This document shows, in pieces, positions 1,278 to 13,885 of a stretch of 64,000 bases of DNA. Made by a program: the position numbers and the translations under genes. The notes beneath the pieces were generated by a model, which was given only the letters and a program-made list of their open reading frames with translations, was not told the DNA's origin and made no database searches. Positions within the stretch are counted from its first letter, which is position 1; each line of letters begins with the position of its first letter. Source of the DNA: Actinocatenispora rupis (GTDB lineage: Bacteria; Actinomycetota; Actinomycetes; Mycobacteriales; Micromonosporaceae); NCBI RefSeq assembly GCF_016861975.1, contig NZ_BOMB01000001.1, forward strand, positions 372,001-436,000, read 5' to 3'.

Positions 1278-2051
1278 GTGGGTGGGGTGCTGGACAGGTT
1301 CGCGCTGACCGGACGGCGGGCGCTCGTCACCGGCGCGAGCCGCGGGCTGGGCCGGGCGTTCGCGCAGGCGCTCGCCGAGGCCGGAGCCGACGTGGTACTC
1401 GCGGCCCGCGGTGGCGACGCGGTGCGGGCCGCGGCCGACGAGGTCGCCGAGGCGACCGGCCGCCGTACGGTCGGGGTCGCCGCGGACGTCACCTCCCGTA
1501 CGGACGTGGACGCGCTGGTGACCGCCACCGTCGAGATGCTCGGCGGGATCGACGTGCTGGTCAACAACGCGGGGGTGGCGATCCACCGGCCCGCGCTGGA
1601 CGTACCGGACGAGGAGTGGCACCGGGTCTTCGACGTGAACGTGCACGGCGTCTGGCTGTGCGCCACGGCCGCCGCGCGCCGGATGCGGGACAGCGGCGGC
1701 GGCGTGATCGTCAACGTCGGGTCGATGTCCGGGCAGATCGTCAACCGGCCGCAGTGGCAGCCGGCGTACAACGCGTCGAAGGCGGCGGTGCACCAGCTGA
1801 CGAGGTCGCTCGCGGCGGAGTGGGCGCCGTACGGGATCCGCGTCAACGCGCTCGCCCCCGGGTACGTGAAGACCGAGATGGCGCCGGTGGACCGGCCCGA
1901 GTTCCGGCAGCACTGGATCGAGGACGCGCCGATGCGGCGGTACGCCACGCCCGCGGAGATCGCGCCCAGCGTCGTGTACCTCGCCAGCGACGCCGCGTCG
2001 TTCACCACCGGCGCGGTGCTCGTCGCGGACGGCGGCTACACCGTCTACTGA
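1278..2051 (+). CDS. SDR family NAD(P)-dependent oxidoreductase
   Basis: Classical short-chain dehydrogenase/reductase of 257 residues. It has the cofactor-binding TGASRGLG near residue 15, the NNAG motif, the catalytic Ser (NVGSMSG) and YNASK with Tyr and Lys, and it ends in DGGYTVY. The substrate is unknown; relatives include gluconate 5-dehydrogenases and 3-oxoacyl-ACP reductases. GTG 1278 was chosen because GGAGG lies 8 nt upstream; the in-frame GTG at 1272 is too close to that site. The 3' end overlaps the convergent sigma-factor gene by 7 nt, so there is no room for a separate terminator. Confidence 0.88.
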   Translation: MGGVLDRFALTGRRALVTGASRGLGRAFAQALAEAGADVVLAARGGDAVRAAADEVAEATGRRTVGVAADVTSRTDVDALVTATVEMLGGIDVLVNNAGVAIHRPALDVPDEEWHRVFDVNVHGVWLCATAAARRMRDSGGGVIVNVGSMSGQIVNRPQWQPAYNASKAAVHQLTRSLAAEWAPYGIRVNALAPGYVKTEMAPVDRPEFRQHWIEDAPMRRYATPAEIAPSVVYLASDAASFTTGAVLVADGGYTVY

Positions 2052-3283
2052 CCGTCCGCCCCGAGCCGCGCGGCCCGCTCGTACAGGAAGCGCTGGTGCG
2101 GGAGGCTCTGCGCGCGGCCGGCGGCGGCCAGGTAGTACGTGCGGGCGGCGGCGGTGTCGCCTGCCATCTCCAGCAGGTGCGCGCGGACCGCGTCCGGCCG
2201 GTGGTCGGCGATGTGGTCCTCGGCGTGCAGCTTGTCGAGCAGGGCGAGTCCGGCGCGCGGGCCGCGGGCCATGGCGACCGCGACGGCGTGGTTGAGCCGT
2301 ACGACGGGGGTGTCGTCGATGCGCAGCAGTACCTCGTAGAGGGCGAGGATCTGGGGCCAGTCGGTCTCGGCCGCGCTCGGCGCCTCGTCGTGCACCGCCG
2401 CGATCGCCGCCTGCACCTGGTACCGGCCGGTCGGGCCGCGTGGCAGGGCGGCGGAGACGAGCGCGACGCCCTCGGCGATGGCGGCGGCGTCCCAGCGGCC
2501 GCGGTCCTGCTCGGCCATGGGTACGAGGTCGCCGTCCGGGCCGGTCCGCGCCGGTCGCCGCGCGTCGGTGAGCAGCATCAGCGCGAGCAGCCCGGACACC
2601 TCGGCGTCGGCGGGCAGCAGCCGGTGCACGATCCGGGTCAGCCGGATCGCCTCGGCGGTCAGCTCGGTACGGGCGAGGCGGGGTCCGGCGGTGCTGGCGT
2701 ACCCCTCGGTGAAGATCAGGTAGAGCACGTGCAGGACGGCGTCGAGCCGGGCGGCGTGGTCGCCCGGTGCCGGCGGCGTGAACGGCACGCCGCTGTCGGC
2801 GATGGTGCGCTTGGCCCGGCTGATGCGCCGGGTCATCGTCGCCTCCGGTACCAGGAACGCGCGGGCGATCTCGGCGGTGGTCAGCCCGCCGACGGCGCGC
2901 AGGGTCAGCGCGATCTGCCCGGCCGGGGTGAGCGCCGGATGACAGCACAGGAACAGCAGCACGAGCGTGTCGTCGGTGGCGGGGGAGCGGTCGGCGGCGG
3001 GGGCAAGCCACTCGTCCGGGAGTACGCGGCGGGCGACGGTGTCCTCGCGGCGGCGCCGGGCCGTCTCGGCGCGCAGCAGGTCGGTGAGCCGGCGGGACGC
3101 GACGGTGATCAGCCAGCCGCGCGGGTTGTCCGGCGTACCGTCGGTCGGCCACTGTGTGGCCGCGGCGAGCAGCGCCTCCTGTACGGCGTCCTCGGCCAGG
3201 TCGAAGTGCCCGTACCGGCGCACGACGGCACCGAGTACCCGCGGCGCCAGCCGGCGCAGCAGGTCCTCGGTCCGTTCGGGCAC
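2045..3283 (-). CDS. ECF RNA polymerase sigma factor, ECF42-like with C-terminal extension
   Basis: Alternative sigma factor of about 412 residues. Sigma region 2 is at about 1-90 (the stretch around HFDLAEDAVQEALLAA). Region 4 is at about 110-175 (LTLRAVGGLTTAEIARAFLVPEATMTRRISRAKR). It is followed by a roughly 230-residue helical, TPR-like C-terminal domain (DUF6596 type) ending in PHQRFLYERAARLG. ECF42 factors are known to carry this extension and to be encoded beside YCII/DGPF proteins, as here. No anti-sigma factor gene is visible, which fits the group. The start is taken at GTG 3283, just after the partner gene's stop, so the two are probably cotranscribed. Confidence 0.85.
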   Translation of the reverse strand: MPERTEDLLRRLAPRVLGAVVRRYGHFDLAEDAVQEALLAAATQWPTDGTPDNPRGWLITVASRRLTDLLRAETARRRREDTVARRVLPDEWLAPAADRSPATDDTLVLLFLCCHPALTPAGQIALTLRAVGGLTTAEIARAFLVPEATMTRRISRAKRTIADSGVPFTPPAPGDHAARLDAVLHVLYLIFTEGYASTAGPRLARTELTAEAIRLTRIVHRLLPADAEVSGLLALMLLTDARRPARTGPDGDLVPMAEQDRGRWDAAAIAEGVALVSAALPRGPTGRYQVQAAIAAVHDEAPSAAETDWPQILALYEVLLRIDDTPVVRLNHAVAVAMARGPRAGLALLDKLHAEDHIADHRPDAVRAHLLEMAGDTAAARTYYLAAAGRAQSLPHQRFLYERAARLGADGQ

Positions 3284-3291
3284 GCCGGTAC

Positions 3292-3714
3292 TCAGGCGAT
3301 CGAGTCCTCGGCGCCGGTGGCGACCGGCCGGACGTCGACGTACCACTCGTGGGCCAGTTGGGCGTCGGCCGGGTGTGGCGTGTCGGCGAGCCTGGCGGCG
3401 ATCTCGACGGCGCGGTCGAAGCTCGCGCACTCGACGATGTTGTAGCCGGCGAGCACCTCCTGCGTCTCGGCGTACGGCCCGTCGGTGACGACGGGGACGC
3501 CGTCGCGCAGGTGGATCCGGCGCGCGTGCACCGGTGCGGTGAGGCCCTGCGCGTCGACGGCCTCGCCGGACTCGACGACCTCGGCCCACCACGACTCCAT
3601 GAACTCCGCCAGCCGGGCCACGTCCGCCCCGGTCCAGCCGGGTGCGGCGCCGGGCCGCCCGGCCATCGCGTCGTAGTCCTGCTGCGTACCGAAGAGCATG
3701 ATCATGTACTTCAT
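3292..3714 (-). CDS. YCII/DGPF-domain protein, partner of ECF42 sigma factor
   Basis: Small cytosolic protein of 140 residues with the YCII-related fold. The sequence VVTDGPYAETQEVLAGYNIVE matches the DGPFAETKE signature that defines the proteins linked to ECF42 sigma factors. The molecular function of the family is unproven; a role in signalling or small-molecule handling is assumed. ATG 3714 has a strong GGAGGA 7 nt upstream. The longer frame to 3753 lacks such a site. It is the first gene of a two-gene unit, with the sigma gene starting only a few bases after its stop. Confidence 0.83.
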   Translation of the reverse strand: MKYMIMLFGTQQDYDAMAGRPGAAPGWTGADVARLAEFMESWWAEVVESGEAVDAQGLTAPVHARRIHLRDGVPVVTDGPYAETQEVLAGYNIVECASFDRAVEIAARLADTPHPADAQLAHEWYVDVRPVATGAEDSIA

Positions 3715-3821
3715 GGTCGTTCCTCCGTGACCGGCACTCCCGTGGTGCCGCACTGCGGACGTCGGAGCCGACCGCCCGGACCGGACACCGCCGAGCCCAG
3801 GAAAGCACAGCGCCCACCTCC

Positions 3822-4367
3822 TCAGCGGGCGTTCTCCCGGTACGCGCGGTACTCGGGGTCGGCGGCGAGCCGTTCGGCCGCGGCCGAGAAGTACGCCCGG
3901 TCGGCGTGCAGGCCGGTGCCGGACACCAGCCGGTTCATCAGGTTGAACAGCGCGCAGATGCCGATCGCCTGGTACAGGTCGGATTCGGCCCAGCCGGCGG
4001 CGAGGACGGCGGTGGCGTCGTCGGCGGTGACCCGGGCCGGTGTCAGGGTCAGGACCCGCACGTACGCCAGGACGGGGCGCAGTTCGTCGGCGACCGGCGC
4101 GCGGTCCGGGTCGGTGAGCAGCGCCGCCAGCAGCCCGTCCGGTACGCCGAAGGCGCGCGCGGTCGCGTCGTGCACGCCGTGGCAGTACGCGCAGTCGTTG
4201 AGGCCGGAGACGTACGCGGCGATCAGTTCGCGCTCGCCGACGGTGAACGCGGACGGGCCGCGCAGCAGGGCGCGGTGGTGGTCGACGAGCGGCCCGGCGG
4301 TCTCCGGGTACGCGCGGAACAGGTCGAGCAGGACGGCGTCGGGCGGCAGCGAGGGCAGGAAGGTCAT
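3822..4367 (-). CDS. AhpD/carboxymuconolactone decarboxylase-like protein
   Basis: Protein of 181 residues of the peroxidase-related AhpD-like superfamily. The active-site motif CAYCHGVH is the CxxC-plus-His arrangement used for thiol-based peroxide reduction. It sits in an all-alpha context (ELIAAYVSGLNDCAYC...). The electron donor and physiological peroxide are unknown. ATG 4367 was preferred over GTG 4403 because AGGA lies 8 nt before it and nothing resembling a ribosome site precedes 4403. It runs divergent from the six-gene oxidative operon that follows, and their promoters share the 4368-4487 interval. Confidence 0.8.
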   Translation of the reverse strand: MTFLPSLPPDAVLLDLFRAYPETAGPLVDHHRALLRGPSAFTVGERELIAAYVSGLNDCAYCHGVHDATARAFGVPDGLLAALLTDPDRAPVADELRPVLAYVRVLTLTPARVTADDATAVLAAGWAESDLYQAIGICALFNLMNRLVSGTGLHADRAYFSAAAERLAADPEYRAYRENAR

Positions 4368-4487
4368 GGCCGGATCCTGCCCGCGGGCGGCGTGTTTTGC
4401 CACTGTCTGGGCGGTCTGAGAATCTTCTGAGATTTGCCGTCCAACATCGCCTTCGAGTGGTGGCTACCCATCCGACGGAGGTGTCCG

Positions 4488-6062
4488 TTGCCGGAGGTTC
4501 TGGACTATCTCGTGATCGGGGCCGGCCCGGCCGGCCTCCAGCTCGGGTACCTGTTGCGCCGGGCCGGGCGCGACCACCTGGTACTGGAGGCCGGCGACGT
4601 GCCGGGGGCGTTCTTCGTCGACCAGCCCCGGCACCGGCGGATGATCTCGATCAACAAGCCGTACACCGGGAGCGACGACCCCGAACTGAACCTGCGCGTC
4701 GACTGGAACTCGCTGCTCGGCGACGACGACGAGAAGTACCGGTTCACGCGCTGGACCGACCGGTACTTCCCGCACGCCGACGACTACCTGCGCTACCTGG
4801 CCGACTACGCGCGGCGGCACGACCTCGCCGTCCGGTACGGGACGCGGGTGGTGCGGGTGGCGCGGGACGGCGACTTCCTCGTCACCGACGAGCGCGGCGG
4901 CACGTACCGGGCGCGGCGGGTGGTGGCCGCGGTGGGCTTCGGCGCGCCGTACGTGCCGGACATCCCGGGGATCGAGCTGGCCGACCAGTACGTGGACATG
5001 TCGGTGGACGCGGACGACTACCGCAACCAGCGGGTGCTGATCATCGGCAAGGGGAACTCGGCGTTCGAGACCGCGGACGCGCTGACCGAGCGGGCCGCGG
5101 TGATCCACGTGGTCGGACCGCACTCGCTGACGTTCGCGTGGCAGACGCACTTCATCGGGCACCTGCGCGCGGTGAACAACAACTTCCTCGACACGTACCA
5201 GCTGAAGGCGCAGAACTCGGTGCTGGACGCCACGGTCGACCGGATCGACCGCGACGGCGACGGCTACCAGGTGACGATGACCTACCAGCGGCGCGACGAG
5301 ACCGTCCGCTTCCGGTACGACAAGGTCCTGTGCTGCACCGGGTTCCGGCTGGACGCGGGCATCTTCGCCGACGGCTGCCGGCCGGAGCTGACGATCCGGG
5401 ACCGGTTCCCGAAGCTGACCTCGGCGTGGGAGTCCGTCAACGTCCCCGGCCTGTACTTCGCCGGCACGCTCACCCAGTCCCGCGACTTCAAGCGCTTCAC
5501 CAGCGCGTTCATCCACGGCTTCCGGTACGGCGTGCGCGCCCTGTCGAAGGTGCTCGACCAGCGGTACGAGGCGACGGGGTGGCCGGCGCGGCCGGTGGAC
5601 GCCGAACCGGCGGCGCTCGCCGACGCGCTGCTCGCCCGCGCCAACCGTACGTCGGGGCTGTGGCAGCAGTTCACGTTCCTCGCCGACGTCGTGTGCCTGG
5701 ACGGCTCTGTGTGCCTCGACGACACCGTGCGCCTCGGCGCCGCTGGCGCGCGGTACCTGGAGGAGGTGCCGCGAGACTACCTCGCCGACGGCGGGATCCC
5801 AGGCGCCGCAACGGTTCTGACCCTGACGATGGAGTACGGGCCGGGGCACGAGGACCTGGACCCGTTCGACGTACCGGCGGGGCGGGCGTGGGAGGCCGAG
5901 CACGGCCGCGACGACCGGTACCTGCATCCGGTGGTGCGCCTCGTCGTCGACGGCGAGGAGCGCGCGGTGCACCGGGTCAAGGAGAACCTCGACAACCTCT
6001 GGACCGATCCGGTCCGGCACCGCGCGCCGCTGGTGGCGTTCCTGGCGGCGCACCTCGGGTAA
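4488..6062 (+). CDS. FAD-dependent, flavin monooxygenase-like oxidoreductase (FOXRED2-like)
   Basis: Cytosolic flavoprotein of 524 residues. The FAD-binding GAGPAG is at residues 11-16. A second dinucleotide-binding site, GKGNSAFE, at about 187-194 fits the NADPH Rossmann fold of group B monooxygenases. The overall pattern (ISINKPYTGSDDPELNLR near the N-terminus, CCTGFRLD, and a long C-terminal region ending in HRVKENLDNLW) resembles FOXRED2-type proteins; this is recognition by eye. TTG 4488 was chosen because GGAGG lies 6 nt upstream. It is the first gene of the operon running to 12567, with the next start 12 nt away. The substrate is unknown; N- or S-oxygenation or an oxidase role are possibilities. 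Confidence 0.78.
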   Translation: MPEVLDYLVIGAGPAGLQLGYLLRRAGRDHLVLEAGDVPGAFFVDQPRHRRMISINKPYTGSDDPELNLRVDWNSLLGDDDEKYRFTRWTDRYFPHADDYLRYLADYARRHDLAVRYGTRVVRVARDGDFLVTDERGGTYRARRVVAAVGFGAPYVPDIPGIELADQYVDMSVDADDYRNQRVLIIGKGNSAFETADALTERAAVIHVVGPHSLTFAWQTHFIGHLRAVNNNFLDTYQLKAQNSVLDATVDRIDRDGDGYQVTMTYQRRDETVRFRYDKVLCCTGFRLDAGIFADGCRPELTIRDRFPKLTSAWESVNVPGLYFAGTLTQSRDFKRFTSAFIHGFRYGVRALSKVLDQRYEATGWPARPVDAEPAALADALLARANRTSGLWQQFTFLADVVCLDGSVCLDDTVRLGAAGARYLEEVPRDYLADGGIPGAATVLTLTMEYGPGHEDLDPFDVPAGRAWEAEHGRDDRYLHPVVRLVVDGEERAVHRVKENLDNLWTDPVRHRAPLVAFLAAHLG

Positions 6063-6074
6063 GGAGAGTCCACT

Positions 6075-7154
6075 GTGGACGGACTGTTGACCGTGGCCGA
6101 CTTCGAGGCGCCGGCGGCCGAGGCGCTCGACCCGGTGCACTACGACTACTTCGCCGGCGGGGCGCGCGACGAGATCACCGTGCGCGCCAACACCTCGGCG
6201 TTCGCCCGGATCCGGTTGCGCCCCAGGGTCCTGCGCGGTCGCGGTACGCCGCGGCTGGCCACGACCGTACTCGGCCAGCCGGCCAGCATGCCCGTACTGC
6301 TCGCGCCCACCGCGTTCCACCGGCTCGCGCACCCGGAGGCGGAACGCGCCACCGCCCGGGCCGCCGCCCGCGCCGGTACGGTCCTCGTCGCGGCGATGCT
6401 GTCCACCGTGGCGATCGAGGACATCGCCGCGGAGGCGCGCAAGGTCGCGGCCGACCCGGTCCTGTGGTTCCAGCTGTACCTCCAGCGCGACATGGGGTTC
6501 ACCGAGGCCGTCGTACGCCGGGCCGAGGCCGCCGGGGTCCGCGCGCTCGTCGTCACCGCCGACTCGCCGGCCCTCGGCCACCACGAACGCAACGACCGCA
6601 ACGGGTTCCACGACCTGCCGCCCGGGATGCGCTGCGAGAACCTGCGCGAGCTGCGCGCCGACGAACCCGGCCACGTACGCCAGGTGGACCTGTCGCCGGA
6701 CCTGTCCTGGGCGCACGTGGCGCGACTGCGCGCGCTCACCGACCTGCCGATCCTGCTCAAGGGCGTACTGCACCCGGAGGACGCGCGGATCGCCGCCGAC
6801 GAGGGCGTCGACGGGATCGTGGTGTCCAACCACGGCGGCCGGCAGCTCGACACCGCGCTGGCCAGTGTCGAGGCGCTGCCCGCGGTGGTCGACGCCGTCG
6901 CCGGCCGCCTCCCCGTACTGCTGGACGGCGGGATCCGGCGCGGCACCGACGTCGTCAAGGCCCTCGCGTACGGGGCGTGCGCGGTGGCGGTCGGCCGGCC
7001 CGTGGTGTGGGGTCTGACCGTCGGCGGCGAGGACGGCGTGACCCGCGTGCTGGACATCCTGCGCGACGAGACCGCGCACACCCTGATGCTGTGCGGCTGC
7101 GGCACCCCCGCCGAGGTGTCCCGCGACCTGGTACTGGCCGGTCCGCCGTGCTGA
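6075..7154 (+). CDS. FMN-dependent alpha-hydroxy acid oxidase/dehydrogenase
   Basis: TIM-barrel flavoenzyme of 359 residues in the family of glycolate oxidase, lactate oxidase/monooxygenase and LldD. It oxidises a 2-hydroxy acid to a 2-oxo acid using FMN. The catalytic base is His253 in VSNHGGRQLD. The segment VLLDGGIRRGTDVVKALAYGA is the phosphate-binding part, and DYFAGGARDE is the conserved N-terminal element. GTG 6075 is preceded by AAGGAG. Its last 7 bases overlap the start of the P450-like gene, so the two are translationally coupled. The 2-hydroxy acid it uses is not evident. Confidence 0.9.
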   Translation: MDGLLTVADFEAPAAEALDPVHYDYFAGGARDEITVRANTSAFARIRLRPRVLRGRGTPRLATTVLGQPASMPVLLAPTAFHRLAHPEAERATARAAARAGTVLVAAMLSTVAIEDIAAEARKVAADPVLWFQLYLQRDMGFTEAVVRRAEAAGVRALVVTADSPALGHHERNDRNGFHDLPPGMRCENLRELRADEPGHVRQVDLSPDLSWAHVARLRALTDLPILLKGVLHPEDARIAADEGVDGIVVSNHGGRQLDTALASVEALPAVVDAVAGRLPVLLDGGIRRGTDVVKALAYGACAVAVGRPVVWGLTVGGEDGVTRVLDILRDETAHTLMLCGCGTPAEVSRDLVLAGPPC

Positions 7155-8536
7155 CCGTCCTCGTGGTGCTCGCCGCCGTGGCGGTCGCGGCGAGCCTCCC
7201 GTACTGGTTGCCGCGGGTGGTGGTGGCGCTGCGGATGCGGATCTTCGCCCGGGTCAACGGGACGGAGGGGATCCCGGTGCCGGGCCCCGAGTACGGACTG
7301 GCCGACTGGTGCGCCCTGTACGAGGATCCCGCGGCGGACGGGCGCAGCCGCGGCGCCGGCCTCTCCGACCTCTTCTGGTACTGGCTGGCGCCGGGGCCGG
7401 AGGTGCACCAGGAACACCTGGAGCCGGGCGACCGGTACGCCGAGGTGGCGCGGGCGACCCGCAGGTTCCTGGCCCGGCCGAAGCCGGACCTGGTGGCGGT
7501 GACCACCGGCGCCGCGCGGACCGTACTGTCCGATGTGGACGGTCCGGTCGCCACCGTACGGCTGCGCGACCTGATGATGCCGGTCTGGGCCGAGGTGTAC
7601 CACCGGCTGGTGTTCGACGAGCCGTGCCCGCCGGGGGTCCGGGCCGCGATCGTCGCGAACGCCGACGACGTGGTCACCGCGCTGAAGTGCTGCGGGCTGC
7701 GGCACATGGACCGCCGCGACCGCCTCACCGGGTACCTGCTGGACCGGGTGCGGCACGACCCGCCGCGGCACCCGCTGCCGGCGCGACTGTCCGAACTGGA
7801 CAGTGCCCGGTACCTCCAGGGCACCTTCTTCAACACCGCCGTCGTGCAGATGTCCGAGGCGATGACGCACCTGCTGCTCGCGGTCGCCCAGCACCCCGAC
7901 GTACGCCGGCGGCTGGTGGCCGACCCGGACGACGACGCGTACCTGGACCGGGTGATCGACGAGTCGCTGCGGCGGTACCCGCTGTTCGGCATCGCGCACC
8001 GGATCACCAGCGCGGACATCGTGCGCGGCGACCGGACCGTACCGGCGGGCAGCGTGCTGTGCTTCAGCTACCCGGAGTTCCACGCGGCGGGGCTGGCCGA
8101 CGCCGACGCGTTCGACCCGGACCGGTGGGAGCGGGAGTCGGCGCGGTCGATGAACTTCCTGCCGTTCGGGGTCAGCGCGAACCGGCCGTGCCCGGCCCGC
8201 GGCGTGGCGCCCGTGACGATGCGGGTCGTCACCCGCGAGGTGCTGCGCCGCTTCCTGCCGTACTCGTCGGCCGCGCACACCCGTTCGGTGCCGAACCGCG
8301 GCCCCTGCCTGCTGGTGTCCCGCGACACGCCCCGTCCGGTACGCCTGCGGCTGGCCGTGATGCGGCTGCGGGACCGGTGGGAGGACGTCGCGCGCAGCGT
8401 CACCCAGCTCGTGCTCGGCACGTACATGGTGCTGGACGCGCGACGGCAGGGCCTCGCCCGCACGTACTTCGCCGACCACGACACGCAGGGCCGGCCGTAC
8501 CCCGGTGCCTGCCCGGTGACCGGAGACCGCCGATGA
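7148..8536 (+). CDS. cytochrome P450-like protein with N-terminal membrane anchor
   Basis: Protein of 462 residues beginning with a hydrophobic helix (LVVLAAVAVAASLPYWL). That is unusual, because most bacterial P450s are soluble. P450 hallmarks are E272-x-x-R275 (ESLRRYP), a PERF-like DPDRW, and the haem-thiolate loop FGVSANRPCPARG with Cys348. The loop departs from the usual FGxGxRxCxG spacing. The I-helix reads GTFFNTAVVQMSE and lacks a clear AGxDT/acid-alcohol pair, so oxygen activation may be altered. The GTG start overlaps the upstream stop, and ATGA couples it to the transporter. No ferredoxin or reductase gene is nearby. Confidence 0.82.
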   Translation: MLTVLVVLAAVAVAASLPYWLPRVVVALRMRIFARVNGTEGIPVPGPEYGLADWCALYEDPAADGRSRGAGLSDLFWYWLAPGPEVHQEHLEPGDRYAEVARATRRFLARPKPDLVAVTTGAARTVLSDVDGPVATVRLRDLMMPVWAEVYHRLVFDEPCPPGVRAAIVANADDVVTALKCCGLRHMDRRDRLTGYLLDRVRHDPPRHPLPARLSELDSARYLQGTFFNTAVVQMSEAMTHLLLAVAQHPDVRRRLVADPDDDAYLDRVIDESLRRYPLFGIAHRITSADIVRGDRTVPAGSVLCFSYPEFHAAGLADADAFDPDRWERESARSMNFLPFGVSANRPCPARGVAPVTMRVVTREVLRRFLPYSSAAHTRSVPNRGPCLLVSRDTPRPVRLRLAVMRLRDRWEDVARSVTQLVLGTYMVLDARRQGLARTYFADHDTQGRPYPGACPVTGDRR

Positions 8537-10119
8537 GGCGCATCGCGTACCGGACGGGCGCGGCGCTGGTGTGCGTCGGCGTGGCACTGCACGTACCGGA
8601 CTTCCTGACGATGCGGCCGATGGGCTACCGGATGGCCGGCATGCCGATGAGTACCGCGATGGGTGTCGGGATGGTGCTGCTGGTGGTCGGGCTGGCCGCC
8701 GCGGCCTGGGGTCTGCTGCCGGCCCGCGCCGCCCGCCGCCACGACACCCCCGGCTCCGACACCGCCGGCCACGACGGCGCCGCAGCGACCGACGCCGCGC
8801 GGTACTCGGCGCTCGACGGGGCGCGGCTGTCGCCCGCGCACCGCCGGCTGATCGCGGTGCTCACCGTGGCGCTGGTGGTGGACACGATGAAGCCGGCGAC
8901 GCTCGGCTTCGTCGTACCGGGGATGCGCGCCGAGTACGGGCTGACGGCGGGGCAGGCGGCGATGCTGCCGCTGGTCGCCATCGCCGGTACGGTCGCCGGA
9001 TCCCTGGTCTGGGGCGCCCTCGCCGACGTGTACGGCCGGCGCGCCACGATCCTGCTCTCGTCCCTGATGTACGTGGCGACGGCGGTGTGCGGCTTCATGC
9101 CGTCGTTCGGCTGGAACCTCGTCATGTGCGCGGCGATGGGCGCCGCCGCCGGCGGCATGCTGCCCACCGTGTACGCGCTGCTCAGCGAGTCGGTGCCGGC
9201 GTCGCGCCGGGGCGTGCTGGTGGTGGCGCTCAGCGGGCTCGGCGCCGCCCTCGGGTACCTGGTGGCCAGCGGTGCGGCGAGCCTGCTGGTACCGGTGTTC
9301 AGCTGGCGTTCGCTGTGGCTGCTCGGCGTACCGACCGGCGCGGTCCTGCTGGTACTGCGCCGTTTCGTGCCCGAGTCGCCGCGGTACCTGATCGCGGTCG
9401 GGCGTACCGGCGAGGCCGCCGCCGTGATGGCCCGGTACGGCATCCGGCCCGTCGCCGGACCCACCGCGCCCGCGGCCACCCCGGCGGTCGCCCAGCGCGG
9501 CGGGTTGGCCGCCGTGTTCGCCCCGGCGTACCTGGCGCGGACCGGCACCATCGTCCTGTACGGGCTCGGCTGGGGCATCGTCAACTGGGGCTTCATCACG
9601 TTCCTGCCGACGTTCCTGACGGCGACCGGTACCGGTACCCGCGCGCCGACGCTGCTGTTCGCCTCGTCGCTGTTCGCGGTGCCCGCCACCGCCCTCGCCG
9701 CCGTCCTGTACGCCCGCTGGAGTTCCCGGCGCACCATGGTCTGCTACGCGGCGGCCACCGCGCTGGTGCTCGTCGCGTTCGCCGTCGTACGACCGGAACG
9801 GCCCGGCGCCGGCGTCCCGCTCGTGGTCCTCACCGCGCTGCTGCTCACCGCCGCGGGCGGCATGATCGCCCTGCTCGCCCCGTACGCGACGGAGGTGTAC
9901 CCGACGGGGCTGCGGGCCAGCGGCAGCGGGGTGGCCGCCGCCGCGGGCAAGGCCGGCGGGCTGTTCGGCCCGCTGCTGCTCACGTCCGCGCCGGCCACCG
10001 CCGCGCTCGCCCTGGTCTCCGCCGTACCGGTGGTGGTGGCGGCGCTGGTGCTGTGGCGCGCGGGTGCCGAGACCGCGGGCCGGCCGCTCGTCGAGGCCGT
10101 CACCGACCCCAGCCGTTAG
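8533..10119 (+). CDS. MFS transporter with N-terminal two-helix extension
   Basis: Inner-membrane major facilitator of 528 residues. After a roughly 70-residue N-terminal segment with two hydrophobic helices and a polar linker, the MFS body starts near residue 100. It shows WGALADVYGRRATILL, the loop 2-3 signature, and later FVPESPRYLIA, typical of sugar/aromatic-acid-type MFS members. Direction and substrate cannot be read, but the position within an oxidative operon suggests import of the substrate or export of the product. The ATG overlaps the P450 stop (ATGA). The extra N-terminal helices could form a separate small domain. Confidence 0.88.
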   Translation: MRRIAYRTGAALVCVGVALHVPDFLTMRPMGYRMAGMPMSTAMGVGMVLLVVGLAAAAWGLLPARAARRHDTPGSDTAGHDGAAATDAARYSALDGARLSPAHRRLIAVLTVALVVDTMKPATLGFVVPGMRAEYGLTAGQAAMLPLVAIAGTVAGSLVWGALADVYGRRATILLSSLMYVATAVCGFMPSFGWNLVMCAAMGAAAGGMLPTVYALLSESVPASRRGVLVVALSGLGAALGYLVASGAASLLVPVFSWRSLWLLGVPTGAVLLVLRRFVPESPRYLIAVGRTGEAAAVMARYGIRPVAGPTAPAATPAVAQRGGLAAVFAPAYLARTGTIVLYGLGWGIVNWGFITFLPTFLTATGTGTRAPTLLFASSLFAVPATALAAVLYARWSSRRTMVCYAAATALVLVAFAVVRPERPGAGVPLVVLTALLLTAAGGMIALLAPYATEVYPTGLRASGSGVAAAAGKAGGLFGPLLLTSAPATAALALVSAVPVVVAALVLWRAGAETAGRPLVEAVTDPSR

Positions 10120-10130
10120 GAGTGTCCACA

Positions 10131-11180
10131 GTGGACGGAATGGATCCGGAACTGGCCGCCGAGGCGTCCCTGCGCGCCCCCAACGGCGCACCGTACGACC
10201 GCTTCGTCGCCTCGTACCGGGCGCGGATGGGGTACCGGGCGGAACCGCTCCGGCCGCCCGCGGTGACCGACGTCGAGGGCGCGATCGACATCCACTGCCA
10301 CGCGCACGAGGGCCAGCAGGACGCGCTCGCCGTCGCCCAGCTCGCCTCCGCGTCCGGCATGGGCGGCCTGCTGTTCAAGAGCATCCGCGGCCGGGACCGT
10401 ACCGACGTGGTCGGCCCTGCCGGTGTCGTACGCGAGGTGGCGCGGGACCTCGCCGACTGGTCGGACGCCACCGGCGTACCGCCGACGCGGCTGTGGTCGG
10501 GCTGGATCACCAGCTTCACCGGCGGGCTGTCGATGACCGACGCGTGCCGCGCGAACCTCGACGACGGCGTGTCCGCCGTGTGGATGCCGGTGTTCCGCAG
10601 CGCCAACACCCTCAGCAAGGTGGGCGGGCCGCCCGCCTGGTGGGGCGAGACCGGCGAGTGGAGCGCGCCGCTGCCGTGGGAGAAGGCGCTCGCGGTCGGG
10701 CAGTACACGCTCGACGGGCGCGGCCGGCTGAAACCCGTGTACCGGGAGGTGTTCCGGATGGTGGCCGACGCCGGGGTGATGGTGTCGTTCGCGCACGGTA
10801 CGCACGACGAGATCTTCGCGATGGCCGACGCCGTACGGGATCTGGGCATCACGCGGGCGGTCGTGGACCACCCGTTCAGCCCGTTCATCGACCTGTCCGT
10901 ACCGCAGCTGCGGGAGCTGGCCGCCGCCGGCGTGTACCTGAACTTCACGTACGACGAGATCTCGCCGTTGCTGGGGGTGGACCCGGCGCGGATGTGCGCC
11001 GCGATCCGGGAGATCGGCACCGGGCAGGTCACCCTGTCCAGCGACGCGGGCGAACCGCTGTTCCCCAACACGGTCGAGGCGATGCGGCTGATCCGGGCGC
11101 ACATGCGCGCGTTCGGGCTGACCGACGACGAGGTGCACCAGGTCAGCGTGGTCAACCCGGGGAGGCTGCTCGGTGTCTGA
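10131..11180 (+). CDS. amidohydrolase-superfamily protein (DUF6282-like)
   Basis: Probable metal-dependent hydrolase of 349 residues. DIHCHAHEG carries the HxH metal ligands (His55, His57). Further His/Asp candidates are in VSFAHGTHDE, VVDHPFSP and LSSDAGEP, so the usual TIM-barrel amidohydrolase ligand set appears complete. It most resembles the uncharacterised DUF6282 group; that family name is from memory. GTG 10131 has AGGAG 8 nt upstream, the same arrangement as the operon's FMN oxidase. Its end overlaps the aldehyde dehydrogenase start by 8 nt. It likely hydrolyses an amide, lactone or ester in the same pathway. Confidence 0.78.
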   Translation: MDGMDPELAAEASLRAPNGAPYDRFVASYRARMGYRAEPLRPPAVTDVEGAIDIHCHAHEGQQDALAVAQLASASGMGGLLFKSIRGRDRTDVVGPAGVVREVARDLADWSDATGVPPTRLWSGWITSFTGGLSMTDACRANLDDGVSAVWMPVFRSANTLSKVGGPPAWWGETGEWSAPLPWEKALAVGQYTLDGRGRLKPVYREVFRMVADAGVMVSFAHGTHDEIFAMADAVRDLGITRAVVDHPFSPFIDLSVPQLRELAAAGVYLNFTYDEISPLLGVDPARMCAAIREIGTGQVTLSSDAGEPLFPNTVEAMRLIRAHMRAFGLTDDEVHQVSVVNPGRLLGV

Positions 11181-12567
11181 ACCCCTGACGATCGGCGGGC
11201 GCGCCGTCGCCGGTACCCCCGGCCTCGACGTCGTCGACCCGGCCACCGGGCGGGTCTTCGCCACCGCACCCGCCTGTACCGACGCGGAACTGTCGGCCGC
11301 GGTCGACGCCGCGCACGACGCCTGGCCGGCCTGGCGCGTGGCGGACCGCGGCGCCGCGCTCACCGCCGCCGCCGACGCGATCGCCGCCGCGGCCGACGAC
11401 CTCGCCCCGCTGCTCACCGCCGAGCAGGGCAAGCCGCTCGCCGACGCCCGCGCCGAACTCGTCCGGGCCGCGGATCGCTTGCGGCACCACGCTTTCCTTC
11501 GTCCCGAGCCTCGCGTACTCCGCGACGACGGCACCGAACGCGTCGAGGTACGGTGGCGCCCCGTCGGCCCGGTCGCCGCCATCGCGCCGTGGAACTTCCC
11601 CGTCCAGCTCGCCGCCGCGAAGATCGCACCCGCGCTCGCCGCCGGCAACACCGTCGTCCTCAAGCCGTCGCCGTACACGCCGCTGACGACGCTCTCGCTG
11701 GGCCGGCTGCTCGCCGGGGTCCTGCCGCCCGGCGTGCTCAACGTGGTGTCCGGGCCGGAACCGTTGGGGGAGCGGCTCGTCGCGCATCCCGGCATCCGCC
11801 AGGTCACGTTCACCGGGTCGGTCGCCACCGGCCGCCGGGTGGCCGCGTCCGCCGGGCCGAACCTGCGCCCCGTCACCCTCGAACTCGGCGGCAACGACGC
11901 GGCGATCGTGCTGCCCGACGCCGACGTACCGGCGATCGCGGACGCGCTGTTCTGGTCCGCCTTCGCCAACTGCGGCCAGATCTGCATGGCCGTCAAACGC
12001 GTGTACGTGGCCGCCGACCGGCACGACGAACTCGTCGACGCGCTCGCCGCCCGCGCCGCGTCCGTACCCGTCGGCGCCGGCTCGGACCCCGGTACGCGGC
12101 TCGGGCCGCTCACCACCGCGCCGCAGTACCGGCGGGTCGCCGGGCTGGTGGCGGCGGCACTGTCCGGCGGTGCGCGCGCCGCGGCCGGCGGCGGCCCCCT
12201 CGACCGCGACGGCTACTTCCACGCCCCGACCATCCTGACCGGCGTCGCCGACACCGACCGGATCGTCACCGAGGAACAGTTCGGCCCCGCCCTCCCCGTC
12301 CTCACGTACGACTCGGTCGACGAGGCGGTCGCCCGCGCCAACGCCACCCCGTACGGGCTGTGCGGGTCGGTGTGGGGTGTCGACGTGGACCGCGCCGTGG
12401 CCGTCGCCGAACGGCTCCAGGTCGGTACCGCGTGGGTCAACAGCCACCTGCGGATGTCGTTCGACGACCCGTTCGCCGGGACGAAGGACTCCGGGCTCGG
12501 CGTGTCCGGCGGCGAGTGGGGCGTGTCCGCGCACACCGAGCCGTACGTGCTGCACCGGCCGAGCTGA
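11173..12567 (+). CDS. NAD(P)-dependent aldehyde dehydrogenase
   Basis: ALDH-superfamily enzyme of 464 residues that oxidises an aldehyde to an acid. General base Glu237 lies in LELGGND and nucleophile Cys271 in NCGQICMA, 34 residues apart as expected. The cofactor region PWNFPVQLAAAKIAPALAAGN and the C-terminal SHLRMSFDDPFAGTKDSGLG are typical. It is the last gene of the operon, with its GTG start inside the preceding gene. An aldehyde formed by the oxidases or by the hydrolase upstream is the likely substrate; this is inference. Confidence 0.93.
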   Translation: MSEPLTIGGRAVAGTPGLDVVDPATGRVFATAPACTDAELSAAVDAAHDAWPAWRVADRGAALTAAADAIAAAADDLAPLLTAEQGKPLADARAELVRAADRLRHHAFLRPEPRVLRDDGTERVEVRWRPVGPVAAIAPWNFPVQLAAAKIAPALAAGNTVVLKPSPYTPLTTLSLGRLLAGVLPPGVLNVVSGPEPLGERLVAHPGIRQVTFTGSVATGRRVAASAGPNLRPVTLELGGNDAAIVLPDADVPAIADALFWSAFANCGQICMAVKRVYVAADRHDELVDALAARAASVPVGAGSDPGTRLGPLTTAPQYRRVAGLVAAALSGGARAAAGGGPLDRDGYFHAPTILTGVADTDRIVTEEQFGPALPVLTYDSVDEAVARANATPYGLCGSVWGVDVDRAVAVAERLQVGTAWVNSHLRMSFDDPFAGTKDSGLGVSGGEWGVSAHTEPYVLHRPS

Positions 12568-12629: not shown

Positions 12630-13388
12630 TCAGGTGGCGGGGGTGCCGTGCCGGCCGGCGCCACCGGCGAACCGCGCCACCCCCGGCCCCGCGTCGGCCA
12701 GCGACACCAGCCCGTGCTCGTACTCGGTGCGCAGCGCCACGTCCTCGGCCACGCCGTGACTGTCCAGAGTGGACAGTCGGTCCTGGCGCAGGCAGGTCTG
12801 CGGCAGCGCGGCGAGCTCGGCGGCGAGCCGCAGGGCTGCCGGCAGCGCCCCGCCGTCCGGTACCAGCCGGTTGACCAGGCCGATGCGTTCCGCCTCGGCG
12901 GCGGGCACCGGGCGGCCGGTGAGGATCAGGTCCATCGCGCGGCTCTCGCCGATCAGCCGCGGCAGTCGTACGGTGCCCCCGTCGATCAGCGGTACGCCCC
13001 AGCGCCGGCAGTACACGCCGAACACGGCGGTCTCGGCCGCGACCCGCAGATCGGCCCACAGCGCCAGCTCCAGGCCGCCGGCCACCGCCGGGCCCTCCAC
13101 CGCGGCGACCACCGGCTTGCCGAGCCGCATCCGCGTCGGCCCCATCGGACCGTCACCGTCCGGCGCGACCCGGTTGCCCCGGTCCGAGCCGTACGCGTGC
13201 AGGTCGGCGCCGGCGCAGAACACCCCGCCGGCGCCGGTGAGTACCGCGACGGAGGCGGTCGGGTCGGCGTCGAACTCCCGGAACGCCGCCGCCAGTGCCT
13301 CCGCCGTCGGCCGGTCCACGGCGTTGCGCACCTCCGGCCGGTCGATCACCACCGTCCACACCGGACCGTCCCGCTCCACCCGTACCAT
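12630..13388 (-). CDS. enoyl-CoA hydratase/crotonase family protein lacking second catalytic Glu
   Basis: Crotonase-fold protein of 252 residues with the oxyanion-hole elements FCAGADLHAYG and AVEGPAVAGGLELALWADLR. The Glu aligning with rat hydratase Glu144 is present (LELAL). The position 20 residues later, corresponding to Glu164, is Cys (FGVYCRRWGVP). Hydratase activity is therefore doubtful, and this FCRRWGVP-type subfamily may do another acyl-CoA reaction. ATG 13388 is favoured because TACGAT lies exactly 6 nt upstream as a leaderless -10 element; GTG 13412 has no ribosome site. Confidence 0.85.
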   Translation of the reverse strand: MVRVERDGPVWTVVIDRPEVRNAVDRPTAEALAAAFREFDADPTASVAVLTGAGGVFCAGADLHAYGSDRGNRVAPDGDGPMGPTRMRLGKPVVAAVEGPAVAGGLELALWADLRVAAETAVFGVYCRRWGVPLIDGGTVRLPRLIGESRAMDLILTGRPVPAAEAERIGLVNRLVPDGGALPAALRLAAELAALPQTCLRQDRLSTLDSHGVAEDVALRTEYEHGLVSLADAGPGVARFAGGAGRHGTPAT

Positions 13389-13453: not shown

Positions 13454-13885
13454 ATGGCAGAAGAGACGCAACGCTCGGTGTCGCTCACCCGCACCGGCAG
13501 CCAGCAGTACGACGTGGAGAACGTGCGCGGCGGCCGGATCACCATCGGGTCCGGGCAGAACACCGATTTCACCCCGGTCGAGCTGCTGCTCGCCGCCATC
13601 GCCGGCTGTACCGCGATCGACGTGGACATCCTGACCTCGCGGCGGGCCGAACCGGAGTCGTTCACCGTGGCGTCCACCGGCGACAAGATCCGTGACGAGC
13701 AGGGCAACCACATGACGAACCTGGAGGTCACGTTCCGGGTCGGGTTCCCGGCGGGGGAGGGCGGCGACAAGGCCCGCGCCCTGCTGCCCGAGGCGGTACG
13801 CACCTCGCACGACCGGCTGTGCACGGTGAGCCGCACCGTGCAGCTCGGCGCGGACGTGACGATGCACGTCGCGACCGACGACTGA
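13454..13885 (+). CDS. OsmC family protein
   Basis: OsmC/Ohr-like protein of 143 residues, a cytosolic thiol-dependent peroxide-detoxifying fold. Conserved Cys residues occur in AAIAGCTAIDVD and in RLCTVSRTV, the two positions expected for the reactive and resolving cysteines. PVELLLAAIAGC is the strongest family marker. The ATG follows CAGGCT by 6 nt and has no Shine-Dalgarno, compatible with a leaderless mRNA. It is divergent from the crotonase gene, with only 65 nt between starts. Confidence 0.88.
   Translation: MAEETQRSVSLTRTGSQQYDVENVRGGRITIGSGQNTDFTPVELLLAAIAGCTAIDVDILTSRRAEPESFTVASTGDKIRDEQGNHMTNLEVTFRVGFPAGEGGDKARALLPEAVRTSHDRLCTVSRTVQLGADVTMHVATDD

Follow-up and report, generated by a model that had tools for sequence, protein, structure and literature searches.

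What do six tightly packed oxidative genes of Actinocatenispora rupis do together, and do they belong together outside this genome? The genes lie in a 64-kb stretch of the 7.83 Mb host assembly (contig NZ_BOMB01000001.1, positions 372,001 to 436,000), and this whole stretch is called the window below. An earlier note, made from the sequence alone, had read them as one operon serving a dedicated small-molecule pathway. We find that the operon represents one form of a cassette that is self-contained and scattered among actinobacteria. Its core of three genes (g1-g2-g3) is constant, and the other three (g4, g5 and g6) are exchangeable around it. We tentatively put forward, as a possibility rather than an expectation, that the cassette oxidises one small carboxylic acid, probably aromatic, by peroxide-coupled alpha-oxidation. 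Open reading frames of the six genes occupy 4488-12567, where the note had placed them. They are numbered in order along the + strand, with families taken from Pfam and NCBIfam:

g1, 4488..6062, + strand: TTG start; oxidoreductase dependent on flavin adenine dinucleotide (FAD) and NAD(P); Pyr_redox_3, 164.8 bits
g2, 6075..7154, + strand: GTG start; 2-hydroxyacid oxidase dependent on flavin mononucleotide (FMN); FMN_dh (PF01070), 410.7 bits
g3, 7148..8536, + strand: GTG start; cytochrome P450; p450 (PF00067), 54.7 bits, cut-off 22.8
g4, 8533..10119, + strand: ATG start; carrier of the major facilitator superfamily (MFS); MFS_1, 119.7 bits
g5, 10131..11180, + strand: GTG start; DUF6282 protein with an amidohydrolase-type fold; 89.8 bits, cut-off 26.8
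g6, 11173..12567, + strand: GTG start; aldehyde dehydrogenase family protein; Aldedh, 465.3 bits

Gaps of 12 nt (g1-g2) and 11 nt (g4-g5) and overlaps of 7 nt (g2-g3), 4 nt (g3-g4) and 8 nt (g5-g6) join the genes. The close packing described in the note was confirmed at every position and junction, and Pfam gave a family to each of the six proteins. Among the NCBIfam matches listed (the best 25 for g1 and g6), no family reached its own cut-off for any of them, and therefore no named function could be transferred. PADLOC anti-phage models gave no match for g2-g6 at E 1e-5; g1 had one marginal match (24.1 bits) to a desaturase-named model.

In Actinocatenispora comari all six genes recur in an unchanged order at 78-90% identity (g5 90%), and other genera hold most of them, mostly in the window order, at 57-74% identity. 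Gene-order comparison thus found the genes together in relatives, as the reading of the note implied. A scan of genome contigs with g5 gave 34 loci. Twelve are actinobacterial (68-90% identity); the remaining 22 (about 45-59%) belong mostly to proteobacterial and deltaproteobacterial genomes or metagenome-assembled genomes. At 11 of the 12 actinobacterial loci g5 is accompanied by g2 and g3, and at 10 also by g1 (one cut by a contig end); the Streptantibioticus locus L030 has g5-g6 only. With the P450 family as bait, whole genomes matched in 13 of 394 cases in a sample of the class, 49 of 250 in one family and 35 of 200 in another. The best scores of the matching genomes in these three samples exceeded 450 bits, except for G785 (227) and G754 (119, a fragment). 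A phylum sample at a looser limit gave 14 of 296, comprising five full-length relatives above 600 bits and nine matches at 64 bits or less; the four genome samples overlap. The only hit among 72,556 plasmid records (PLSDB) was the chromosome-sized record NZ_LT559118.1 of Nonomuraea gerenzanensis, 11.85 Mb long and filed there as a plasmid.

For comparison, 103 loci were taken with their flanks. The P450 gene was called in 100 of them (not in L030, L237 and L239), and 96 remained after the duplicates L026, L164, L166 and L167 had been dropped; two of these (L210 and L226) come from one genome. L026 (contig 36) is one of two operon copies in A. comari, the other being L027 (contig 24). It starts inside g1 at a contig end, and both copies show identical identity percentages to window g2-g6, which points to a duplication or an assembly repeat. 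Twenty-one genes of these operons served to train the gene caller, whose start positions may be off. Counts cover genes up to 9 kb from the P450 gene and, for the sigma factor group, the whole stretch; some stretches stop at contig ends, so an absent gene may have been cut off. Family names come from Pfam on representatives; for the sigma and anti-sigma factors they rest on a reading of the sequences L187_8 and L187_7.

At the 96 loci we counted the P450 96 times, the oxidase g2 94 times and the FAD enzyme g1 81 times. The other parts were an adenosine monophosphate (AMP)-ligase (67), a CPA2 antiporter (57), a response regulator (50), a histidine kinase (44) and a sulfotransferase (26). DUF6282, the MFS carrier g4 and the sigma factor group occurred 11 times each, and the aldehyde dehydrogenase g6 and an ammonia-lyase 7 times each. 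Overlaps join g1 to g2 in 60 of 80 adjacent pairs and g2 to g3 in 67 of 77 adjacent same-strand pairs. Because the flanks, common within genera, differ from lineage to lineage, the cassette stands alone. The dedicated pathway of the note holds to this extent: the genes travel together as a self-contained unit, but the set of six is only one variant around the constant g1-g2-g3.

Two versions of the cassette can be told apart by what surrounds this core. The window version has DUF6282 and is found at 11 loci, with g1 in 10, g2 in 11, g4 in 5, g6 in 7 and none with CPA2, ammonia-lyase or sulfotransferase. The commoner version has the AMP-ligase (67 loci), mostly with the CPA2 antiporter and in places with ammonia-lyase or sulfotransferase. 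Its commonest order in the first family is AMP-ligase, g1, g2, g3, antiporter, regulator and kinase on a single strand; in the second family the AMP-ligase is usually divergent. DUF6282 and the AMP-ligase never share a locus (0 of 96), nor do the CPA2 antiporter and g4 (0 of 96), and 18 of the 96 have neither DUF6282 nor ligase. The window operon falls outside the AMP-ligase version, with no such ligase beside g1-g2-g3, and the same is true of all 11 DUF6282-type loci (0/11). A distant partner within the host genome was also considered. Of 17 AMP-ligase matches the best, on contig C7, is 46% identical over part of its length and 39-40% overall, lies outside any cassette and adjoins a gene that by eye reads like a TetR regulator; the idea was dropped.

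Regulators occur with both versions. A two-component or sigma regulator is present at 61 of the 96 loci, with a sigma factor of the extracytoplasmic function (ECF) type at 11. Homologues of one response regulator/histidine kinase pair (regulator at 50 loci, kinase at 44) also stand at 6 of the 11 DUF6282-type loci. The statement of the note that the operon contains no regulator is thus true of the window operon but does not extend to the cassette.

The two versions also appear to mix. On a P450 tree of 95 sequences (L238, whose P450 is 32% alike, was left out here and from the P450 residue counts) the DUF6282 label changes twice, and on a g2 tree of 94 sequences three times, two of them forced, compared with about 10.6 changes after shuffling; the P450 tree was made by a quick method and both trees were midpoint-rooted. 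In Streptomyces griseofuscus, g1, g2, g4 and g5 are closest to DUF6282-type loci, whereas the ten best matches of g3 are all AMP-type (73% to L210), and the gene stands out of order, ahead of g1. In this single case the P450 seems to have been exchanged naturally between versions. Because it combines window-type g1, g2, g4 and g5 with a P450 of the AMP-type clade, it suggests that the P450 step is common to both. We rejected two independent swaps of ligase for DUF6282, as the P450 tree might be read, since a chimera is the better reading of the S. griseofuscus locus.

Some loci depart from both patterns. The N. gerenzanensis locus (L242, 6004-14704) is an AMP-type cassette with sulfotransferase and without the g2 oxidase beside its P450. 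Nine AMP-type loci (L187-L189, L193, L195, L196, L204, L205 and L206) lack g1, and there the sulfotransferase adjoins g2, mostly between g2 and g3. An ECF sigma factor is present at these nine, with an anti-sigma factor in some; they are perhaps a variant with a sulfated product. At L238 (9364-14691) a distant P450 (32% identity, 227 bits) lies beside an AMP-ligase, a 2-oxoglutarate (2OG)-Fe oxygenase and a pyridoxal phosphate (PLP) enzyme. We set this locus aside; it may be a related but different cassette.

Which chemistry could the constant core perform? The protein g3 belongs to the P450 superfamily by PF00067, an ExxR motif and a heme-ligand Cys; E272 is kept in 93 of 95 sequences, R275 in 92 and C348 in all 95. 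Its structure model matches P450 structures (E about 1e-8, TM score about 0.36-0.59 among the 50 Foldseek matches listed). The acid-alcohol pair of canonical P450 monooxygenases is absent. In a gap-free alignment of helix I to CYP175A1, Val233-Gln234 sit on the Glu-Thr pair, and both residues are invariant (95/95). A CYP74-like helix-I Asn was considered (Asn229 is N in 86 of 95), but the gap-free alignment indicates Val233-Gln234 instead. The Cys loop FGVSANRPCPA is one residue longer than that of CYP11B2, and its N-R-x-C-P-A is invariant in the 95 sequences. The membrane anchor described in the note is visible in the window as an N-terminal hydrophobic helix of g3, but is not general, since 63 of the 96 pass a crude hydropathy test; the Amycolatopsis azurea P450, for one, seems to be without it. 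A motif search within 8 kb found a ferredoxin-like gene near 2 of the 96 P450 genes and none near the other 94. Eight iron-sulfur-like strings that turned up in six-frame translations were dismissed as noise of translation, the two ferredoxin-like cases being called genes.

Almost all of the oxidase g2 can be aligned with glycolate and lactate oxidases, and PF01070 and its active-site residues mark it as an FMN 2-hydroxyacid oxidase. In glycolate oxidase numbering, the residues that correspond to K230, H254 and R257 are unchanged in all 94 sequences. The Tyr129 position is Y in 92 of the 94, and the Tyr24 position is Y in 70 and F in 24. Oxidases of this family yield hydrogen peroxide (H2O2). 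The mycofactocin synthase MftD model (TIGR03966) gave g2 225.9 bits, below its cut-off of 470.9. The FAD enzyme g1 has two Rossmann-type motifs, GAGPAG and GKGNSA. It may resemble the endoplasmic reticulum protein ERFAD/FOXRED2. That human flavoprotein carries FAD and NADPH motifs, and a passage in PMC3040216 presents its mechanism as not settled.

Proteins of the amidohydrolase superfamily have a TIM barrel and the metal ligands HxH, His, His and Asp. The g5 model (pLDDT 88) matches phosphotriesterase, TatD, dipeptidase and related amidohydrolases, at a distance (E from 1e-7, TM about 0.4-0.6, rmsd 6-13 A). H55 and H57 (the HxH), H222, H247 and D305 are invariant in 26 of 26 aligned sequences and lie in or just past strands 1, 5, 6 and 8. 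The fold and these residues place g5 in the superfamily, with a predicted metal site. The nearest NCBIfam family of g4 is the aromatic acid/H+ symport family (131 bits against a cut-off of 418.6), of which it is not a member by this measure.

A hint of the substrate comes from the AMP-ligase version. The nearest PDB structure of the ammonia-lyase, found at 7 AMP-type loci, is 2o6y, which we take to be the tyrosine ammonia-lyase (TAL) of Rhodobacter sphaeroides. The nearest structures of the AMP-ligase are 6sq8 and 6h1b, which we take to be the amide bond synthetase McbA. L075 has His by alignment at the position that a passage in PMC8773403 describes as His89 in the R. sphaeroides enzyme, and L079, L082 and L084 have the same His-Leu in sequence (these are the four inspected among the seven). 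The ammonia-lyase with this TAL-type His is a hint of an aromatic substrate. NCBIfam was run on two of the ammonia-lyases; because histidine ammonia-lyase models scored highest, below their cut-offs, we leave the ammonia-lyase substrate open. The two relatives may point to aromatic acids such as p-coumarate, but they do so in the AMP-ligase version.

From these parts we infer the following reactions, their order, the substrate and the roles of g1 and g4. First, g1 would oxygenate or oxidise the substrate. Using H2O2 and not ferredoxin, g3 would hydroxylate the carbon next to the carboxylate (R-CH2-COOH + H2O2 -> R-CHOH-COOH). The oxidase g2 would turn the product into a keto acid (R-CHOH-COOH + O2 -> R-CO-COOH + H2O2), with the H2O2 returned to g3. 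In the window version the metal enzyme g5 would cleave or decarboxylate the keto acid, g6 would oxidise the resulting aldehyde to R-COOH, an acid one carbon shorter, and g4 would carry the acid across the membrane. In the commoner version the AMP-ligase would instead activate the acid for a coenzyme A (CoA) or amide product. A narrower and bolder proposal, which we consider unlikely, is that g2 and g3 are a natural, co-translated peroxide-recycling pair, with g3 a new, non-CYP152 type. One O2 would then drive two oxidations without ferredoxin or NADPH, and the pair would be the exchangeable core of at least two kinds of cassette, with AMP-ligase or DUF6282.

Several points weigh against alpha-oxidation. 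The case for an aromatic substrate draws on other loci and on an MFS family match that falls far short of its cut-off. The model of g3 is of middling confidence (pLDDT 69). Where known peroxygenases have Arg-Pro, g3 has Val-Gln, so that its binding of a carboxylate and its use of peroxide are proposals only. Loss of the acid-alcohol pair also fits P450s that isomerise or dehydrate, and a ferredoxin encoded elsewhere in the genome could serve g3. The residue at the R164 position of g2, H in the window, varies among the 94 sequences: 49 have R, 21 have H, 15 have N and the rest have others. The oxidase is missing at L184 and beside the N. gerenzanensis P450, so that g3 can apparently work without a linked oxidase. 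At DUF6282-type loci g6 is missing in 4 of 11 and g4 in 6 of 11, and decarboxylation by DUF6282 is a guess. Kinship among the sequences means that the counts overstate the number of independent events. Alpha-oxidation is only slightly more likely than two ordinary readings, a biosynthetic and a catabolic one.

The first of these, likewise possible, is that the cassette makes a specialised metabolite, small and exported, and that its P450 and flavin chemistry is of the ordinary kind, driven by ferredoxin. The window DUF6282 would hydrolyse an ester, lactone or amide where the AMP-ligase would form one. The patchy distribution (49/250, 35/200 and 13/394 genomes) suits a biosynthetic role, as do the regulators at 61 loci, carriers at 68, sulfotransferases at 26 and ammonia-lyases at 7, and a ligase whose nearest solved relatives are the McbA structures 6sq8/6h1b. 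The missing acid-alcohol pair of g3, and the 94 of 96 P450 genes near which no ferredoxin-like gene was found, argue against ordinary P450 chemistry; the operon in the window, moreover, is without ligase, regulator pair, sulfotransferase and ammonia-lyase.

Somewhat more doubtful is a catabolic or detoxifying DUF6282 version, in which g4 would import an aromatic or hydroxy acid, g1-g3 would oxidise it, and g5 and g6 would feed central metabolism. What the AMP-ligase version makes might even be the substrate of the DUF6282 version. The nearest family of g4 and the presence of an aldehyde dehydrogenase are consistent with catabolism, and so is the mutual exclusion of the two versions. So too are the surroundings of distant DUF6282 relatives outside actinobacteria (45-59% identity). 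Of ten neighbours tested at five such loci, nine have a family: amino-acid-type ATP-binding cassette (ABC) uptake, aminotransferase, IclR, enolase superfamily, 2-hydroxyacid dehydrogenase and amidohydrolase, which look catabolic in character. Against this, the same regulator pair has homologues next to both versions, genes of both are combined at the S. griseofuscus locus, and Pfam finds no CoA ligase, ring-cleavage or beta-oxidation family in the six proteins.

The genes next to the operon bear on one more explanation. An AhpD/CMD-like gene (3822-4367) lies upstream of and divergent from g1, and an OsmC-type gene (13454-13885), whose A. comari homologue matches Pfam OsmC, lies downstream. No relative of the CMD gene was found at the A. 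comari locus, and none that is convincing among the 103 loci (one at E 0.005). Two Amycolatopsis loci have a CMD gene of a different sort upstream of g1, and OsmC relatives are confined to the genus. As these neighbours are unconserved beyond the genus or unrelated in sequence, we rejected them as parts of the cassette. It is most improbable that the operon is a unit for redox or stress protection that has no metabolite of its own, in which the FAD enzyme and the oxidase handle peroxide or thiols and the AhpD-like and OsmC neighbours remove peroxides, for all that the two genes flank it here and g1 may resemble ERFAD/FOXRED2. On the - strand, 2045-4403 holds an ECF sigma factor with DUF6596 beside a small gene; the counterpart of this small gene in A. 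comari has a YCII domain.

The note had also remarked on a start layout shared by two genes. AGGAG at 6062 and at 10118 is each followed by the 13-base palindrome GTCCACNGTGGAC over a GTG:

palindrome GTCCACTGTGGAC, 6068..6080, no strand: covers the g2 GTG start; a genome-wide repeat
palindrome GTCCACAGTGGAC, 10124..10136, no strand: covers the g5 GTG start; the same repeat

The layout is real at both genes, but it is no signature of the operon and was discarded as such, as GTCCACNGTGGAC occurs 336 times in this genome against none for the reversed control. Among 11 genomes the copies numbered 336 here, 172, 125 and 119 in three congeners, 72 in G005 of the same family, 246 in G040 of another family, and 9, 5, 0, 0 and 0 in the remaining five; the reversed control gave 0-1. 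GGAG at the same spacing occurs at only five sites of the genome, two of them in this operon. Two of the other three open GTG frames of 144 and 311 codons, and the frame of the third ends after 8. Imperfect related copies lie in the window at 12761, 26268, 29917 and 60428.

If alpha-oxidation is right, a metabolite cassette undescribed in the literature searched, with no PKS (polyketide synthase), NRPS (nonribosomal peptide synthetase) or RiPP (ribosomally synthesised and post-translationally modified peptide) genes in its core, would be present in two actinobacterial families, in 49 of the 250 genomes sampled from one and 35 of the 200 from the other. It would also bring a P450 family set apart by its sequence and a function for DUF6282. 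The gene combination, the P450 family and the exchange of DUF6282 for AMP-ligase were not found in open-licence PubMed Central (PMC) papers, in searches not all aimed at the gene set, and no paper carrying the name DUF6282 was found there. Nor did these searches turn up a characterised operon with the set, in agreement with the suspicion of the note that the system is undescribed. All the enzymes are from known superfamilies; g5 is from a family of unknown function with a known fold.

Several known systems come close. The mandelate pathway consists of a hydroxyacid dehydrogenase, a keto-acid decarboxylase and an aldehyde dehydrogenase. It shares with the window operon the pairing of an FMN 2-hydroxyacid oxidase with an aldehyde dehydrogenase; the six window proteins, however, include by Pfam no thiamin-dependent (benzoylformate) decarboxylase and have a P450, a FAD enzyme and DUF6282 instead. 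The hydroxyphenylglycine module of glycopeptide antibiotics shares the family of g2, which includes its 4-hydroxymandelate oxidase (5zzp, E 1.3e-69, 238.5 bits), but matches of g2 to animal hydroxyacid oxidase and plant glycolate oxidase (single-domain, about 300 bits) are higher, and hydroxymandelate synthase and transaminase are absent from the six proteins. Clusters with McbA-type amide bond synthetases (marinacarboline) resemble the commoner version in its AMP-ligase, nearest to 6sq8/6h1b; the window version is without such a ligase, the best match in the genome lying outside any cassette.

Another likeness is to the CYP152 fatty-acid peroxygenases (P450 BS-beta, OleT and CypC). Like g3, they have a P450 fold, a lost acid-alcohol pair, an unusual Cys loop and no linked redox partner, and a 2-hydroxy acid product of their kind would suit g2. 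Arg-Pro replaces the acid-alcohol pair in CYP152, as a passage in PMC5818669 describes; g3, with Val-Gln and 19.6 bits against a cut-off of 600 for the CypC model NF053744, stands outside this family on both counts. Oxidase-fed P450 peroxygenation has been built artificially, for example with alditol oxidase, according to a passage in the same paper (PMC5818669), and g2 with g3 would, if our proposal is true, be its natural counterpart.

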